Of a stretch of 38,217 bases of DNA, positions 9,846 through 38,132 are shown in pieces (position 1 is the stretch's first letter; each line of letters opens with the position of its first letter). The translations under genes and the position numbers were made by a program. The notes under the pieces are model-generated. The model was not told the DNA's origin. It saw only the letters and a program-made list of their open reading frames with translations, and did no database searches. The stretch spans positions 1 to 38,217 of the forward strand of contig CACXXP010000006.1 of assembly GCA_902771695.1 (NCBI GenBank), read 5' to 3'. The DNA is from an uncultured Pseudomonadota bacterium. Its GTDB lineage: Bacteria > Pseudomonadota > Alphaproteobacteria > Rs-D84.

Positions 9846-10337
9846 ATGCAGAAAAACAATTTCTCTTTTTGGGGTTGCGCCGTGTTAGGCATGCACGATG
9901 CGATTGTATCTACTACTGGCCTTGTTGTGGGGCTTGTTTTTGCGGCGGCTGGACAATATGTGGTTCTGTTAACGGCAATAATCGCATCGGTCGCAGCAGC
10001 ACTTTCTATGACGGCATCGGAATATCTGTCTGTTCGCACAGGCGAAAATTCAAATGTTGCATTGCGTTGTGGACTATCGACTGGGCTTGCGTATTTGTTT
10101 AGTTCAGGTATGTTAGTAATTCCTTTTTTATTTATATCAAATACTTTTGTTGCACTGGCGATGACAGGGGTCATTGCGGTATCAGTTATATTCTTTTTTA
10201 ATTATGTAAAATCGCATCTGTGTCATGAAAAGTTTTGGCCAAAATTTATCGAAATGCTGCTTATCTGTGCCATTGTGACAACTGTTGGGTTTATTATTGG
10301 GGAATGTGCAAAATTATGTTTTGGTTTGGAAATATAA
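9846..10337 (+). CDS. Small VIT1/CCC1-family membrane protein
   Basis: A 163-residue, almost wholly hydrophobic protein with about five membrane helices. G-M-H-D-A-I-V-S-T-T-G-L-V-V-G-L (15-30) is the VIT/CCC1 helix-1 signature carrying the metal-site Asp, and A-L-S-M-T-A-S-E-Y-L-S-V (about 52-63) is the helix-2 Glu motif. VIT proteins exchange Fe2+ or Mn2+ for protons. The cytoplasmic metal-binding helices rich in Glu and Met that normally sit between helices 2 and 3 are missing; the chain goes from helix 2 to helix 3 with about 15 residues. The start has no Shine-Dalgarno and lies directly behind the preceding terminator's T-run, so how it is expressed is unclear. Confidence 0.7.
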   Translation: MQKNNFSFWGCAVLGMHDAIVSTTGLVVGLVFAAAGQYVVLLTAIIASVAAALSMTASEYLSVRTGENSNVALRCGLSTGLAYLFSSGMLVIPFLFISNTFVALAMTGVIAVSVIFFFNYVKSHLCHEKFWPKFIEMLLICAIVTTVGFIIGECAKLCFGLEI

Positions 10338-10362
10338 AAAATGCCCAAACGGGCATTTTTTA
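10336..10362. terminator. Bidirectional terminator between the VIT-like gene and fabZ
   Basis: A ten-base-pair stem AAAAATGCCC / GGGCATTTTT with AAAC loop (GTTT on the minus strand) has A and T runs on both sides. It overlaps both flanking stop codons and serves converging transcripts. Confidence 0.9.
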
Positions 10363-10800
10363 TATTTGTGGATTATCATCCATTATTGCTGAAAACGTTG
10401 CCGATGCCACACGAACACCGTTCACAAACGCATTCCCAGAAAATTTGTGCATTTTCAATTTTGATGCAACTTCTTCTACATGCAATTCTAATGTATCACC
10501 TGGCAAAACCATACGTGCGAAACGCGCACTTTCAATAGATACAAAATATCCCAACATTTTTCCGCCATTATTGCCATGTGTCTTCATTATCATAAAACAC
10601 GCCGTTTGGGCCAATGCTTCCACTATTAAAACACCGGGCATAATAGATTTTGCCGGGAAATGTCCAGCACACCAAAATTCGTTATCACGGACATGCTTTA
10701 TACCAACCGCCGTTTTATCGGTAAATTCGCGGATTTCATCAATCAATCGCATATCACCACGGTGCGGTATAACTTGTTCTATACCCTGTGCATCTACCAT
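10360..10800 (-). CDS. fabZ: 3-hydroxyacyl-ACP dehydratase FabZ
   Basis: A 146-residue hotdog-fold enzyme that dehydrates 3-hydroxyacyl-ACP in fatty-acid synthesis; it competes with lipid A synthesis for 3-hydroxyacyl-ACP, which fits its place behind lpxD. I-P-H-R-G-D-M-R-L-I-D begins the fold, and A-G-H-F-P-A-K-S-I-M-P-G-V-L-I-V-E-A holds catalytic His47 and Glu61. Length is normal. AAGGA stands before the start and 16 bases separate it from lpxD. The usual next gene lpxA is not present; the operon ends here at a terminator. Confidence 0.96.
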   Translation of the reverse strand: MVDAQGIEQVIPHRGDMRLIDEIREFTDKTAVGIKHVRDNEFWCAGHFPAKSIMPGVLIVEALAQTACFMIMKTHGNNGGKMLGYFVSIESARFARMVLPGDTLELHVEEVASKLKMHKFSGNAFVNGVRVASATFSAIMDDNPQI

Positions 10801-10816
10801 TACTGCATTCCTTTTT

Positions 10817-11863
10817 TTAATCTTGATTTATATGTTTTTTGACCCAGGCATAATGCCGCAAGAATTCTGTACCGGGTGCCGCCGGATATCCCATATGACG
10901 CGCACCATCGGGGACATCGCGGAAAACACCACTGTTTGCGCCAACCTCGGCATCATTGCCAATTTTAACGCCATTGGCAATTCCAACATGACCGGCCAAT
11001 AACGCCCTGTCACCAACCGTAACACCACCGGCAATTCCAACACCAGATGCCAAAAAGCATTCACGACCAATCACAACGCCATGTGCAATTTGACACAAAT
11101 TATCTATCTTGGTTCCATCGCCGACCATTGTGTCCGTCAAGGCACCGCGGTCAATGCACGTATTCGCCCCAATCGATACACGATTTCCCAAAACGACACG
11201 CCCAACATGCGGTATAAATACGTTATGCCCATCTTGACGTGTATAACCAAAACCGTCTTTGCCAATAGATGCACCATTATGTATTACACATTCCGAACCA
11301 ATTGTTGCATTTTCAATATGCGCCCCAGAATGTATAACTGTGCCACGACCAATTGTAACATTTTTTCCAATGTATACGTTTGGGTATATTTTCACATCTG
11401 GCTCAATTACCGTGCCGCGTTCAATTGTTGCGAATTGTCCAACATAAGTACTGCGCCGGTCACGAAAGAACACACCTTTTTCAATATATGCATCCGCAGA
11501 AACACCACGGCGTGGTGGTTCGCGGTATATTTCACCCAATATTTTTACAATTTCACCGCGTGGACTGGCACACACCAGTAATGTTGCGCCATCTGGTGCA
11601 TGTGACACCATTTCTGGTTGCAATAAAATCACAGATGCGCGTGTATTTTCCAATACCGATACCGGTAATATCTTGAAGGCATTACTGTTTTGTTCCGTAG
11701 AATAAAATGCGATTTGCCCAGGACGTGCATCAGCAATCGGTGCAATTCCGTTTATCAGCGTATCCGGATTTCCACGTAATTCCAGTCCAAATTTTTCAGC
11801 GATTTCGCCCGCCGTCATTTTGGTTGCGCGTGGACCAAACAAAGATTTGATTATATTTAACAT
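10817..11863 (-). CDS. lpxD: UDP-3-O-acylglucosamine N-acyltransferase LpxD
   Basis: A 348-residue left-handed beta-helix acyltransferase that adds the N-linked 3-hydroxyacyl chain in lipid A synthesis. After the N-terminal uridine-binding domain (about 1-105) come many hexapeptide repeats ([23 protein letters not shown]), with the catalytic His region I-A-H-G-V-V-I-G. An in-frame ATG at 11890 is possible, but 11863 is favoured: a TATAAT box ends six bases before it, so the mRNA probably begins at this A. Skp upstream is cut off by a terminator, so lpxD needs its own promoter. Confidence 0.95.
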
Positions 11864-24719: not shown

Positions 24720-25437
24720 TATGCGTGAATATAATACCATTGAAGATTTTATCACCTTTGGTAAATTGTACCCAAATGCAGAATTCGCCATCCAGGCACA
24801 TCCACCAAAGTTTTATAAATACCAACCACGTTATGAATGGACCAATACTTTCGCAACCGCCTGCAAAGTTAATAATATAAACATGGCATTGCATATAAAT
24901 GGACCATGGCGTGATGATATGTGCAGCAATGGTATAATCGCCCCCGAGGTCAAACATCTAATGGATTTGCGACGTGATAATGGCGGACATGTTATCGGAC
25001 GAATCCAGATAAACATAAATGGTGGCAACCAAGAATACATGTTTAATGCAAATCGTGTGGCCGACATTATTCGCGAATACCCCGATATAGAATTCATATT
25101 CCAATACACACCGGCACAATATGAACGTGTGACCGCATTGGATAAAACAGGGGCCAAATTTTCGTTACTGTACGATGCATCGGGTGGTCGCGGCAAAACA
25201 CCGGACGAATATTATGGCCCAGTTATGCAGAATCATAAAATGGGATACAGTGGCGGTATATCCCCGGAAAACGTGGAATACATACTGGACCGGGTTAACA
25301 TGGTTTTACCATCTGATTATGTCACATGGATAGATGCCGAAAAGAAATTGCAAAACCCGTACACAGGGCGATTTGATGTTGCACGTGCCTTGGAATATGT
25401 CCGCCGTGCAAATAATTGGATACATCGGCAACGTTAA
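24691..25437 (+). CDS. TIM-barrel protein resembling phosphoribosylanthranilate isomerase
   Basis: A 248-residue protein of alternating beta/alpha elements. The C-terminal half looks like TrpF: L-L-Y-D-A-S-G-G-R-G-K-T (a D-x-G-G-x-G-x-T phosphate loop), M-G-Y-S-G-G-I-S-P-E-N-V (like the A-G-G-L-x-P-x-N-V strand) and W-I-D-A-E followed by R-F-D-V-A-R-A. The N-terminal half differs from TrpF (AEFAIQAHPPKFYKYQPRYEW). No tryptophan genes are nearby, so a role in tryptophan synthesis is not supported; substrate is unknown. AAAGGAG six bases before the ATG fixes the start inside rlmN. Confidence 0.6.
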   Translation: MILEKITSSDMREYNTIEDFITFGKLYPNAEFAIQAHPPKFYKYQPRYEWTNTFATACKVNNINMALHINGPWRDDMCSNGIIAPEVKHLMDLRRDNGGHVIGRIQININGGNQEYMFNANRVADIIREYPDIEFIFQYTPAQYERVTALDKTGAKFSLLYDASGGRGKTPDEYYGPVMQNHKMGYSGGISPENVEYILDRVNMVLPSDYVTWIDAEKKLQNPYTGRFDVARALEYVRRANNWIHRQR

Positions 25438-25464
25438 TCGCTGTATCGGACCAAATCTAAAAAC

Positions 25465-25490
25465 AGATTCCGGCTTTCGCCGGGATGACG
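25465..25490. repeat. REP-like palindrome
   Basis: CCGGC-TTTC-GCCGG flanked by GATT and GATGAC. It matches the widely dispersed proteobacterial palindrome of the type GTCATCCCGGCGAAAGCCGG, read on the minus strand. Only one copy is in the window. It lies between a gene end and a terminator, the usual site for such elements. Confidence 0.55.
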
Positions 25491-25493
25491 ATA

Positions 25494-25521
25494 AAAAACG
25501 GTTGCGATTGCAACCGTTTTT
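25494..25521. terminator. Bidirectional terminator
   Basis: A twelve-base-pair stem AAAAACGGTTGC / GCAACCGTTTTT with GATT loop lies between converging genes (rlmN operon and the Cys-rich protein gene). Confidence 0.92.
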
Positions 25522-25552
25522 ACTAACCACTATTACTGGCCACTGGTACTGA

Positions 25553-27469
25553 TTACATACCTACGCTGAAACTATCACCGTAACTTGCAACGTTTTGACC
25601 ACCAATTGAACATTTGATATCTTCAAAGCCCTGTTTCAATTGGTTCTTTTTAACCAGTTTAGATGTGATAATACCACCGGCGGTACCCAACACAACACCC
25701 GCGATACTATCCGATGCCAAACGTGCGGTATTGAAATTACCTTCGGCATCTTTCCATACGGACTTTTCAAATCCGCCCATCGTAGAATTCAATTTACCAT
25801 ACGATGCAGTGATTTTTGCACGAATATTGACGATTGCGTTGTCATCATATACGCACTGACCGTTTTGGACAGTTTTGCCTTCTTCGTTGCACTTGCAGAT
25901 ACCATTTGCATCATTCTTGGCACCTGGGACCGTGCATTCGCATGCGGTATAGTTATTGATTTCACGTTGATACGGATTTATGCACTTGCAATTACCACTG
26001 ACCGTATCAAATTTCATACCGTTCGGACATTGTGTATTTGCATTATATACGCATTGACCATCAACAATAACTTTCTTTGGGTCATCGCATTTGCAATTGC
26101 CATTTGCATCATTTGTTGCACCGGCAATTGCACATTTGCATGCGGTGTTATTGTTTATTTCGGTTTGGTTTTCCGCACTGCACATACAACGTCTTTCGGT
26201 TGCATTGTAATACATTCTGTCGGAACACTGTGGTGTAGAGTCACCACCGCCGCCGCCACCGTTGCCACCGTTGCCAATGCATTGGCCACGACCGTTTGCC
26301 GCGATAGAGAATTTTTTACCACCATCATTACATGTACATGTATCGGTTGACGCGTTGTATGTCGCACCATTTGAACCACTCTTTGGCAAATAACAACATG
26401 CCTTGCCATTTTGGGTTGAACGAGTTTCCAAACATTTTTGCAAACTTGTTTTACCACCTTGACCGCCACCATTGTTAACATTGTTATTGTCACCAATTAC
26501 CGTGGTGTTACCATTATCACTGTTGTTGTGGTTTTCGTTTGAATTGTTATTCTCGCTGCTGTTTGATGTCGTCTGATTGTTATCATTTACCTGTTGATTC
26601 TGTTGATTGGTATTCACATTGGAATTTCCAGAATCAGTTATATTACCAACATCATTTATGTTAATGATTGTCCCATAATTACATTGACTTCCCTGTGGAC
26701 ATTCATTTTTACTTTTACAACGTGGTGGGGTTGCAGAAGTATCCAACCATTCGTTATCTGGACATTTACACTGGCCACCTATCATTACACCACCATAATT
26801 AAGGCATTCTTGCTCTTTCTTATCTCTTGCTGCTTCTTTGTCTTCTTCGCATTTGCTGCCATTCCATTTCTGGCCGGACTTTACACATTCACATTGACGC
26901 AAAGAATCATTCCATTTGCCACCATTGTTAACGCAACGATATTGTTCAGCACTGGCCATACAAATTGTTGCACTGGTTGCACCATTGGCGGTTCTGGTTT
27001 CATCAACACAGATTTTCTGGCCGACAACCTTTTTGCAATAGAAATGCATCTGACCTATTCCGCTCATACCAACGTGTTTGTATGTTTTTATTTGATCCGC
27101 GGTACAATCCTTGATATAACCACCACCAGTTAAATTCAACATTTCCCAGGCATTTCCACCAACACTGTTACAACGATACAATCTTATATCGTTTACACTG
27201 TCCGATTTCCAAACGTGGGTTGCAGGCATCAATGTAAACACACCATTATTGCAACCATCTATTGCCTTGTGTCCACATGCAATTCCATAACGACCTTCAT
27301 GCTGGGCAGTATTTTCATACAAGAACTGATTCTTGTCACGATCCATGTCCCAAATCGTCTTTTCTATACGTTGCACATTGCAGTTATAAGTTGCCGCACC
27401 AACAGCAGACCCAACCACCAAACACGCCGCAACAACGGAAAAAAACTTTGCAAAATCAGTGATTTTCAT
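25553..27469 (-). CDS. Large Cys/Asn-rich exported protein with EGF-like repeats
   Basis: A 638-residue protein I do not recognise. Signal peptide about 1-26. A first Cys-rich region (30-263) carries short C-x-C units such as R-Q-C-E-C-V. An Asn/Gln/Ser/Gly-rich, probably disordered linker spans about 264-340. A second Cys-rich region (346-540) includes two aligned 46-residue EGF-like units at 430-475 and 496-541 (shared E-I-N-N, T-A-C-x-C, N-D-A-N-G-x-C-K-C, D/N-G-Q-C-V-Y). A C-terminal domain follows, with a Gly/Ala-rich hydrophobic helix at 587-602 (SIAGVVLGTAGGIITS), then basic residues and one more Cys620. This suggests a surface or periplasmic protein anchored by its C-terminal helix. 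AAGGAAAGAG precedes the start. Adhesion is a guess only. Confidence 0.8.
   Translation of the reverse strand: MKITDFAKFFSVVAACLVVGSAVGAATYNCNVQRIEKTIWDMDRDKNQFLYENTAQHEGRYGIACGHKAIDGCNNGVFTLMPATHVWKSDSVNDIRLYRCNSVGGNAWEMLNLTGGGYIKDCTADQIKTYKHVGMSGIGQMHFYCKKVVGQKICVDETRTANGATSATICMASAEQYRCVNNGGKWNDSLRQCECVKSGQKWNGSKCEEDKEAARDKKEQECLNYGGVMIGGQCKCPDNEWLDTSATPPRCKSKNECPQGSQCNYGTIININDVGNITDSGNSNVNTNQQNQQVNDNNQTTSNSSENNNSNENHNNSDNGNTTVIGDNNNVNNGGGQGGKTSLQKCLETRSTQNGKACCYLPKSGSNGATYNASTDTCTCNDGGKKFSIAANGRGQCIGNGGNGGGGGGDSTPQCSDRMYYNATERRCMCSAENQTEINNNTACKCAIAGATNDANGNCKCDDPKKVIVDGQCVYNANTQCPNGMKFDTVSGNCKCINPYQREINNYTACECTVPGAKNDANGICKCNEEGKTVQNGQCVYDDNAIVNIRAKITASYGKLNSTMGGFEKSVWKDAEGNFNTARLASDSIAGVVLGTAGGIITSKLVKKNQLKQGFEDIKCSIGGQNVASYGDSFSVGM
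25847..26182 (-). repeat. Two 46-residue Cys-rich repeat units
   Basis: Codons 430-475 (26182-26045) and 496-541 (25984-25847) encode aligned units with the same cysteine spacing, separated by 20 residues. They are diverged in sequence, so this is an old duplication. Confidence 0.75.
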
Positions 27470-37018: not shown

Positions 37019-37597
37019 ATGAAAATAAAAAACTTTGCTTTATTAGCTGGTGCTGCTGGGTTACTGGCGGCATGTGGTGGTTCAAGTGTTGTTGAACCAG
37101 AAGATTTGAACGGTCAACGCGTTTTCTTTGCGTTTAACTCTTCGGAAATTTCCGATGCAGCGCATGATAACTTGATGGGCCAAGCTCTGTACATGAAATC
37201 ACACGATGATGTAAAAGTACAGATTGCTGGTAACTGCGACGAACGCGGTTCAACAGAATACAACTTGGCATTGGGTGCACGTCGTGCAAACGCGGCCAAG
37301 AAAGTCCTTGTTGAAGAAGGTATCGATGCAAAACGTATTTCTACCATCTCTTATGGTAAAGAACGTCCATTGGTCAAAGGTACGGGAAAAAACGCCCGTT
37401 TGGGCGTTTTTTTTGCACAAAAACACCGGCAACGCCGGTGTTTTTTATATTTTATGGGCAATGATGCACGTGTCTTGGACCCCCGGCCACCCAAATTCAG
37501 TTTCGGGTTTAGAATACGTTTTTATAATTTCAAAATTATTTGCCCCCAGCATTGTTTCCATATCCTCTATACGTATTATATTAAAATCCGTCGTTAA
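37019..37597 (+). CDS. pal: Peptidoglycan-associated lipoprotein Pal with abnormal 3' end
   Basis: Residues 1-121 are clearly Pal: lipobox L-A-A-C (Cys19), V-F-F-A-F-N-S-S-E-I, A-G-N-C-D-E-R-G-S-T-E-Y-N-L-A-L-G-A-R-R-A and I-S-Y-G-K-E-R-P. Pal ties the outer membrane to peptidoglycan in the Tol-Pal system. After K-E-R-P-L-V-K-G-T-G the frame runs straight into an intrinsic terminator (37387-37414), and the final N-R-R-beta-strand segment (about 15 residues) is missing in all frames. No stop occurs until 37595, so the nominal 192-residue product has a nonsense tail. Either a real deletion or an assembly error. AAGGGAG precedes the ATG. Confidence 0.85.
   Translation: MKIKNFALLAGAAGLLAACGGSSVVEPEDLNGQRVFFAFNSSEISDAAHDNLMGQALYMKSHDDVKVQIAGNCDERGSTEYNLALGARRANAAKKVLVEEGIDAKRISTISYGKERPLVKGTGKNARLGVFFAQKHRQRRCFLYFMGNDARVLDPRPPKFSFGFRIRFYNFKIICPQHCFHILYTYYIKIRR
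37387..37414 (+). terminator. Intrinsic terminator inside the pal reading frame
   Basis: AAAAAACGCCC / GGGCGTTTTTT with GTTT loop and eight T. It begins at codon 123 of pal, before any in-frame stop. Confidence 0.9.
37418..37446 (-). terminator. Intrinsic terminator of the methyltransferase gene
   Basis: AAACACCGGC / GCCGGTGTTT with a three-base loop; T-run on the minus strand. It stands back to back with the pal terminator, four bases apart. Confidence 0.88.
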
Positions 37598-38059
37598 TGT
37601 GGTATTTAACGGCTCTGTGATGGTTATTTCACCAAGCTCCCCTGTGAATAACTCTATAAATAAAATTCCTTTATCCTGTAATATATGATTCAATTGTGCC
37701 AAACAATTTGAAACCTGGTTATTGGTTAAATGACATAATATATAGGACAATATTATACAATTAAACGAATTATTATTAAAATTCAATTGCGACACATCGC
37801 CCTGAATAAATTTTGCGTGTGATTTTTTATTTTTGGCGATGGTAAGCATATTATCTGACGCATCTATTCCGGTGACATTATACCCCAAATTTGATAAATA
37901 AACCGCATTATTACCCGAACCGCATCCCAAATCTAAAATTGCCGTTTCTTTTTCAACATATCTTAATAAATCTTTAATATGACATGATGGGGCGGAAAAT
38001 AATTTATCATACTCGTACGCGATAGAATCATAGGTCGAAACGTTTTTTCTTTTATCCAT
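37445..38059 (-). CDS. Class I SAM-dependent methyltransferase
   Basis: A 204-residue Rossmann-fold methyltransferase. Motif I is I-L-D-L-G-C-G-S-G-N-N-A, motif II is V-T-G-I-D-A-S-D-N-M-L, and a G-D-V-S-Q-L-N-F segment follows; the start T-Y-D-S-I-A-Y-E-Y-D resembles small-molecule or tRNA-wobble methyltransferases (Methyltransf_25/11). The substrate is unknown. Base use is visibly more AT-rich than neighbouring genes (many ATA, TTA, AAT codons), suggesting recent acquisition. A short TGGGA stands before the start. It converges on the truncated pal. Confidence 0.82.
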   Translation of the reverse strand: MDKRKNVSTYDSIAYEYDKLFSAPSCHIKDLLRYVEKETAILDLGCGSGNNAVYLSNLGYNVTGIDASDNMLTIAKNKKSHAKFIQGDVSQLNFNNNSFNCIILSYILCHLTNNQVSNCLAQLNHILQDKGILFIELFTGELGEITITEPLNTTLTTDFNIIRIEDMETMLGANNFEIIKTYSKPETEFGWPGVQDTCIIAHKI

Positions 38060-38080: not shown

Positions 38081-38132
38081 AAAAAAGCCGGCGTTTTTAT
38101 TAAATAAATATTTTTTAATTCCCGGCCTTTTT
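38081..38132 (-). terminator. Possible terminator of the partial gene at the right edge
   Basis: AAAAAAGCCGG and CCGGCCTTTTT pair with one bulged base around a 30-base AT-rich loop; T-run on the minus strand. The long loop lowers confidence. Confidence 0.45.

Follow-up and report, generated by a model that had tools for sequence, protein, structure and literature searches.

A pal reading frame that runs into its own terminator in the draft genome of an uncultured alphaproteobacterium

The systems closest to the locus described here include: (i) arfA of Escherichia coli, in which premature termination, or cleavage at a stem-loop, within the frame generates a non-stop mRNA, (ii) a case of 2008 in which a gene is left, by accident, with no stop codon ahead of the mRNA end (both in PMC3989581), and (iii) the complete pal genes of close relatives, exemplified by loci L075 and L076. 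In arfA the arrangement is regulated and the shortened protein is active (PMC3989581), whereas the arrangement reported here is private to one genome and the protein lacks a conserved end. The 2008 case, as PMC3989581 cites it, shares with pal the accidental origin of a gene that lacks a stop codon; it differs in that the apparent cause in pal, a gene of an uncultured bacterium of the gut, is a deletion that extends as far as the terminator of pal itself. The complete Pal loci of L075 and L076 carry the same gene at the same place with a similar double terminator and the same methyltransferase neighbour, but in these relatives the protein retains a C-terminal helix and strand and the stop codon lies ahead of the hairpin. 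The stretch of DNA analysed (hereafter the window, 38,217 nucleotides) is the whole of contig C6 of the source draft genome (G000), which has 969,079 bases in 23 contigs and is 93.4% complete.

The pal frame of the window starts at an ATG (37019, forward strand) and remains open to 37597, with a TAA at 37595-37597 and 192 encoded residues; no stop codon is present ahead of the hairpin at 37387-37414, as a first-pass annotation of the DNA had stated. The encoded protein is a lipoprotein with an OmpA-like domain that scores above the gathering cut-off of PF00691 (E 1.1e-19; 71.1 bits vs 27.2). The TIGR02802 equivalog is matched at model positions 1-92 of 104 (E 4.5e-32) with 110.2 bits, below its cut-off of 125.35; the intact relative L075 likewise falls below this cut-off (121.4 bits), yet covers positions 1-103. 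The same annotation had read Pal as intact through K-E-R-P, and the sequence is ordinary past this point, up to L-V-K-G-T-G (residue 123), and divergent beyond. Its further claim of a missing C-terminus stands, but the motif conserved here is N-R-N followed by A-T-T-T-V-K, rather than the N-R-R it had named, and this motif is not present in the window. A simple frameshift, which the annotation had judged inadequate, is ruled out, as the conserved C-terminus is gone from the aligned DNA itself. Over the retained codons, comparison with the four nearest relatives (L074, L075, L076 and L078) gives dN of 0.014-0.027 and dS of 0.21-0.29, and the four relatives give 0.011-0.022 and 0.19-0.32 among themselves, values that point to ordinary constraint on the retained part of pal. 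The gene is otherwise undamaged, with no decay apart from the deletion.

Table 1. Features at the 3' end of pal in the window, with positions, strand and evidence.
Feature	Position	Strand	Evidence
Retained pal, residues 1-123, with the lipoprotein signal and the greater part of the OmpA-like domain	37019..37387	+	PF00691, TIGR02802, dN/dS
Deletion point: 47-49 bp of the colinear relatives (end of conserved C-terminus and stop codon) missing	37386..37387	+	Pairwise alignment with L075/L076; multiple alignment with 13 relatives
Intrinsic terminator of pal (hairpin and T-run), now in the open frame	37387..37414	+	Fold; identity to L075
Run-on frame across the terminator to the stop codon at 37595-37597; overlaps the methyltransferase gene on the opposite strand	37388..37597	+	ORF
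Two-way terminator (the second hairpin) that separates pal from the methyltransferase gene	37419..37445	.	Scan, fold, stem search
SAM-dependent methyltransferase gene (204 aa)	37445..38059	-	PF08241, E 4.4e-21

The hairpin that the frame enters had been described as a perfect terminator hairpin, and the fold shows it to be strong: the segment 37380-37416 folds at -17.1 kcal/mol with 13 pairs (z -3.45), and none of 200 shuffled sequences folds as well. All 43 bases from 37388 to 37430 are identical to the terminator stretch that follows the L075 pal stop codon, which lies close ahead of this stretch; thus, the in-frame hairpin is the normal terminator of pal. A similar double hairpin is present in L074, L075, L076 and L078. 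A scan for consensus terminators listed the second hairpin alone (one hit, against 1.3 expected from shuffled sequence); the first was probably passed over because its stem includes its T-run, and a stem search recovered both. When this stem search was extended to the whole window and hairpins with T-runs were compared with same-strand frames of at least 100 codons, three were located inside such a frame: the two at pal and one at 10337-10360. The latter falls early in the open frame 10229-11002, close to its 5' end, and the true start of that frame may be downstream of the hairpin. The pal hairpin recurs in near-identical form elsewhere in the draft genome (30 of 30 bases at C2:39117-39146 and 25 of 25 at C3:55366-55390) and, judged by this recurrence, looks like a member of a family of standard terminators.

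Comparison with close relatives bears on how the terminator came to lie in the frame. The four nearest relatives are 92.6-94.0% identical to the window in DNA over the first 122 codons of pal, and all four have a complete pal 3' end at this place, the finding that the first-pass annotation had named as counting against its reading of the locus. L075 and L076 each align to the last 5.2 kb of the window as a single block (about 33.0 kb to 38217; 81% identity). The gaps of at least 3 bases are one at 37386 (49 bases vs L075, 47 vs L076), one of 13 bases at 38108 and a few of 3-5 bases; the sole gap larger than 13 bp in the 5.2 kb is thus the one of 47-49 bp at the foot of the hairpin. The alignments indicate that the anomaly is one local deletion ending at the foot of the terminator, through which the terminator of pal itself was brought into the frame. 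An assembly join was also among the proposals of the annotation. The colinearity on both sides, which continues through the methyltransferase gene into parB, rules out that unrelated sequences were joined; a local error of assembly, about 48 bp in size, is weighed below.

A fresh deletion linked to the foreign-looking methyltransferase was a further proposal, of which the deletion is upheld by the 47-49 bp gap in the colinear 5.2 kb, but the link is not. In both L075 and L076 the methyltransferase (63% identical over 204 residues) occupies the same position, beside a pal that is intact, and, thus, is neither new here nor the cause; a deletion caused by insertion of this gene is ruled out. The gene was not found in the 4 kb behind the intact pal of L074 and L078, and the methyltransferase between pal and parB appears to come and go among close relatives. 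The contig closes within parB, of which it has the 3' end (minus strand), as judged by a translation similar to the final part of the ParB-like frame found at that place in L075.

The nearest named public relatives by pal are metagenome-assembled genomes (MAGs) of alphaproteobacteria or unplaced proteobacteria, several of which are from the rumen, and some of the records are named Candidatus Enterousia. For nine MAGs of that genus from farm-animal guts, PMC12306168 gives sizes of 0.75-1.02 Mb. The source genome is probably near Candidatus Enterousia, its membership being presumptive. A full-length pal profile of 138 positions was searched against a genus set of 157 genomes that includes the source genome, and this pal was found in 149 (E 4.6e-69 or better). 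Among the other 148 pal-bearing genomes, 145 cover model positions 1-138 and three give partial matches: 1-136 in G059, where the gene meets a contig edge, 28-138 in G100 and 29-138 in G124. The source genome alone ends at position 126, and 0 of the other 148 genomes have a pal cut before position 136 (G059 ending at its contig edge). The remaining eight genomes include five with paralogue-level matches only (G032, G033, G068, G168 and G178; best E about 1e-45 to 1e-47) and three with no match at 1e-40 (G121, G123 and G128). Some of the eight are incomplete, so the absence of this pal is unproven for the group as a whole; G178 is 99% complete. Many members of the genus also have another Pal-like lipoprotein, encoded by a frame of about 130-150 residues at 50-60% identity (e.g., G003:C1:208153-208548). 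The search for a second pal that the annotation had advised recovered neither such a copy nor a Pal-like paralogue in the source draft, which would leave an important function without evident backup and counts against a real deletion.

Public-genome loci give the same picture of the intact gene, in sets that overlap in part with the genus set and with each other. Among the best 80 of at least 550 public pal loci, the C-terminal motif or a near variant closes the protein in all 80 (exactly in 73), and a hairpin with a T-run lies 0-56 nt behind the stop codon in 79 (median 19 nt); a separate set of 29 relatives has a complete pal in every member. This proximity of the terminator to the pal stop codon means that a small deletion can make a non-stop gene.

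The regulatory design that the first-pass annotation had entertained would make pal a non-stop gene similar to arfA, in which the in-frame terminator ties the level of Pal to ribosome rescue. The trait by which arfA is recognised, a hairpin or terminator in frame ahead of any stop codon, is present in pal, and the fold suggests that the arrangement would yield a non-stop mRNA if the terminator works; in that event, we infer on sound grounds from the terminator, most pal mRNAs would be without a stop codon. A regulated gene of the arfA kind is also expected to keep its arrangement in related species, but none of the other 148 pal-bearing genomes does so: the arrangement is private to one of the 157 genus genomes, and the nearest relatives keep a complete pal with a stop codon ahead of the same hairpin. 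A regulated origin is, thus, scarcely credible for this locus. As a caution, a frame that enters a terminator mimics a regulatory design until the copies of relatives are compared.

The consequence for the protein was modelled by AlphaFold2 from shallow alignments (28-29 sequences), with poor N-terminal residues in both models, such that the models serve as supporting evidence only. Mean pLDDT is 69.6 for the window protein (residues 1-131) and 77.5 for L075. In the L075 model, a helix (124-130) and a strand (132-137) form blocks of mean pLDDT 77-86; in the window protein, residues 120-131 have pLDDT below 50, no final strand of at least 3 residues is predicted and the strand at 33-36 is gone as well. 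The C-terminal helix and the last strand of the domain, by which a Pal is recognised, are thus missing from sequence and model. In the intact relative, the match to solved Pal structures extends to residue 133-134, within the part that the window protein lacks. These models bear on the idea of a tolerated deletion, in which the tail encoded by the terminator restores the last strand of the domain and a slightly changed Pal works. The tail has a hydrophobic stretch and the OmpA profile match extends into it (profile position 93 of 98, at protein residue 126), but the low predicted confidence of residues 120-131, the loss of two strands from the model and the well-modelled helix and strand of the intact relative argue against such restoration, which is considered very unlikely.

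A real local deletion of about 48 bp in one genome, in which the last codons and the stop codon were lost and the frame was fused to the normal terminator, is the reading that is preferred, with moderate confidence. Such a deletion would have taken out the last codons of pal, its stop codon and some or all of the short spacer that follows, and may have arisen in the sampled population by, for example, slippage ending at the hairpin; polymerase slippage is common at hairpins. Transcripts of the allele would end at the T-run without a stop codon, ribosomes would stall at about residue 130-131 with the product tagged or abandoned, and the Pal protein would be misfolded, as its last helix and strand are lacking. 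On rare read-through, the product would reach 192 residues and carry an unrelated tail. Should the mutation be real, pal would here be an envelope gene with a naturally occurring loss-of-stop allele.

A local assembly or strain-mixing error, in which case pal is complete in the organism and the draft has dropped about 48 bp, is a tentative but substantial alternative. The truncation is confined to a single draft, the one genome searched for this species, the pal gene has no other lesion and is under normal constraint, and Pal, a component of the Tol-Pal system, is usually important. In addition, the break is at a strong inverted repeat with near-identical copies elsewhere in the draft, and other conserved genes (RF2, SmpB and tmRNA) were not found in its 23 contigs (93.4% complete). 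Against an error of this type, both flanks are colinear with the relatives, the missing piece of pal has no match of more than 15 bases elsewhere in the draft, and the bases preceding the hairpin at six of its other copies have no 8-mer, and at most two adjoining bases, in common with the pal side of the join; thus, a misjoin through the repeated hairpin is not supported. In one copy (C2), the 6 bases just before the hairpin are also found in pal, 2 bases ahead of the join, a match that we take as chance. A real mutation is somewhat more likely than an assembly error, given the clean colinear flanks, the break at a hairpin and the 8 of 157 genus genomes without a match at the level of this pal, which suggest that its loss may be bearable. 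The lack of further decay fits a very recent mutation, but fits an artefact too.

The ribosome rescue genes of the draft were surveyed as well. Neither an alpha-type tmRNA nor SmpB was found in the source draft; SmpB is present in 34 of 34, and tmRNA in 21 of 23, of the other genus genomes in the sets searched. The draft has one RF-1-domain protein only, which is of the RF1 type in that it lacks the SPF motif, and RF2 was not found; this motif is taken here as the mark of RF2, and the release factor of G010 is called RF2 by it. No short ArfB-like RF-1-domain protein is listed in 40 genomes, save for two fragments (61-65 residues). In G004, G009, G010, G017 and G021, tmRNA is about 3-6 kb from a release-factor gene, which in G010 is that of RF2. 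When the tmRNA region of G010 was used in a DNA search, contig C8 of the source draft matched to one side of tmRNA only, with short matches elsewhere. TGA is the stop codon of 4 among the 29 long open frames in the window. These frames, and the fact that RF2 and tmRNA are neighbours in G010 and both missing here, make a gap likelier than a true loss, and the missing SmpB, tmRNA and RF2 are probably draft gaps combined with variable gene order. That the species truly lost trans-translation (no SmpB, tmRNA or ArfB-like protein being seen) and also bears a non-stop pal unique among the genus members searched is highly improbable. In G031, smpB and three more genes are located between two blocks that are 388 bases apart on contig C15 of the source draft (25421-25809); if trans-translation was lost, this closed slot would represent a true deletion, not a difference in gene order. 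Gene order does vary among the relatives, as exemplified by G006, in which smpB is about 23 kb from the RF1 block.
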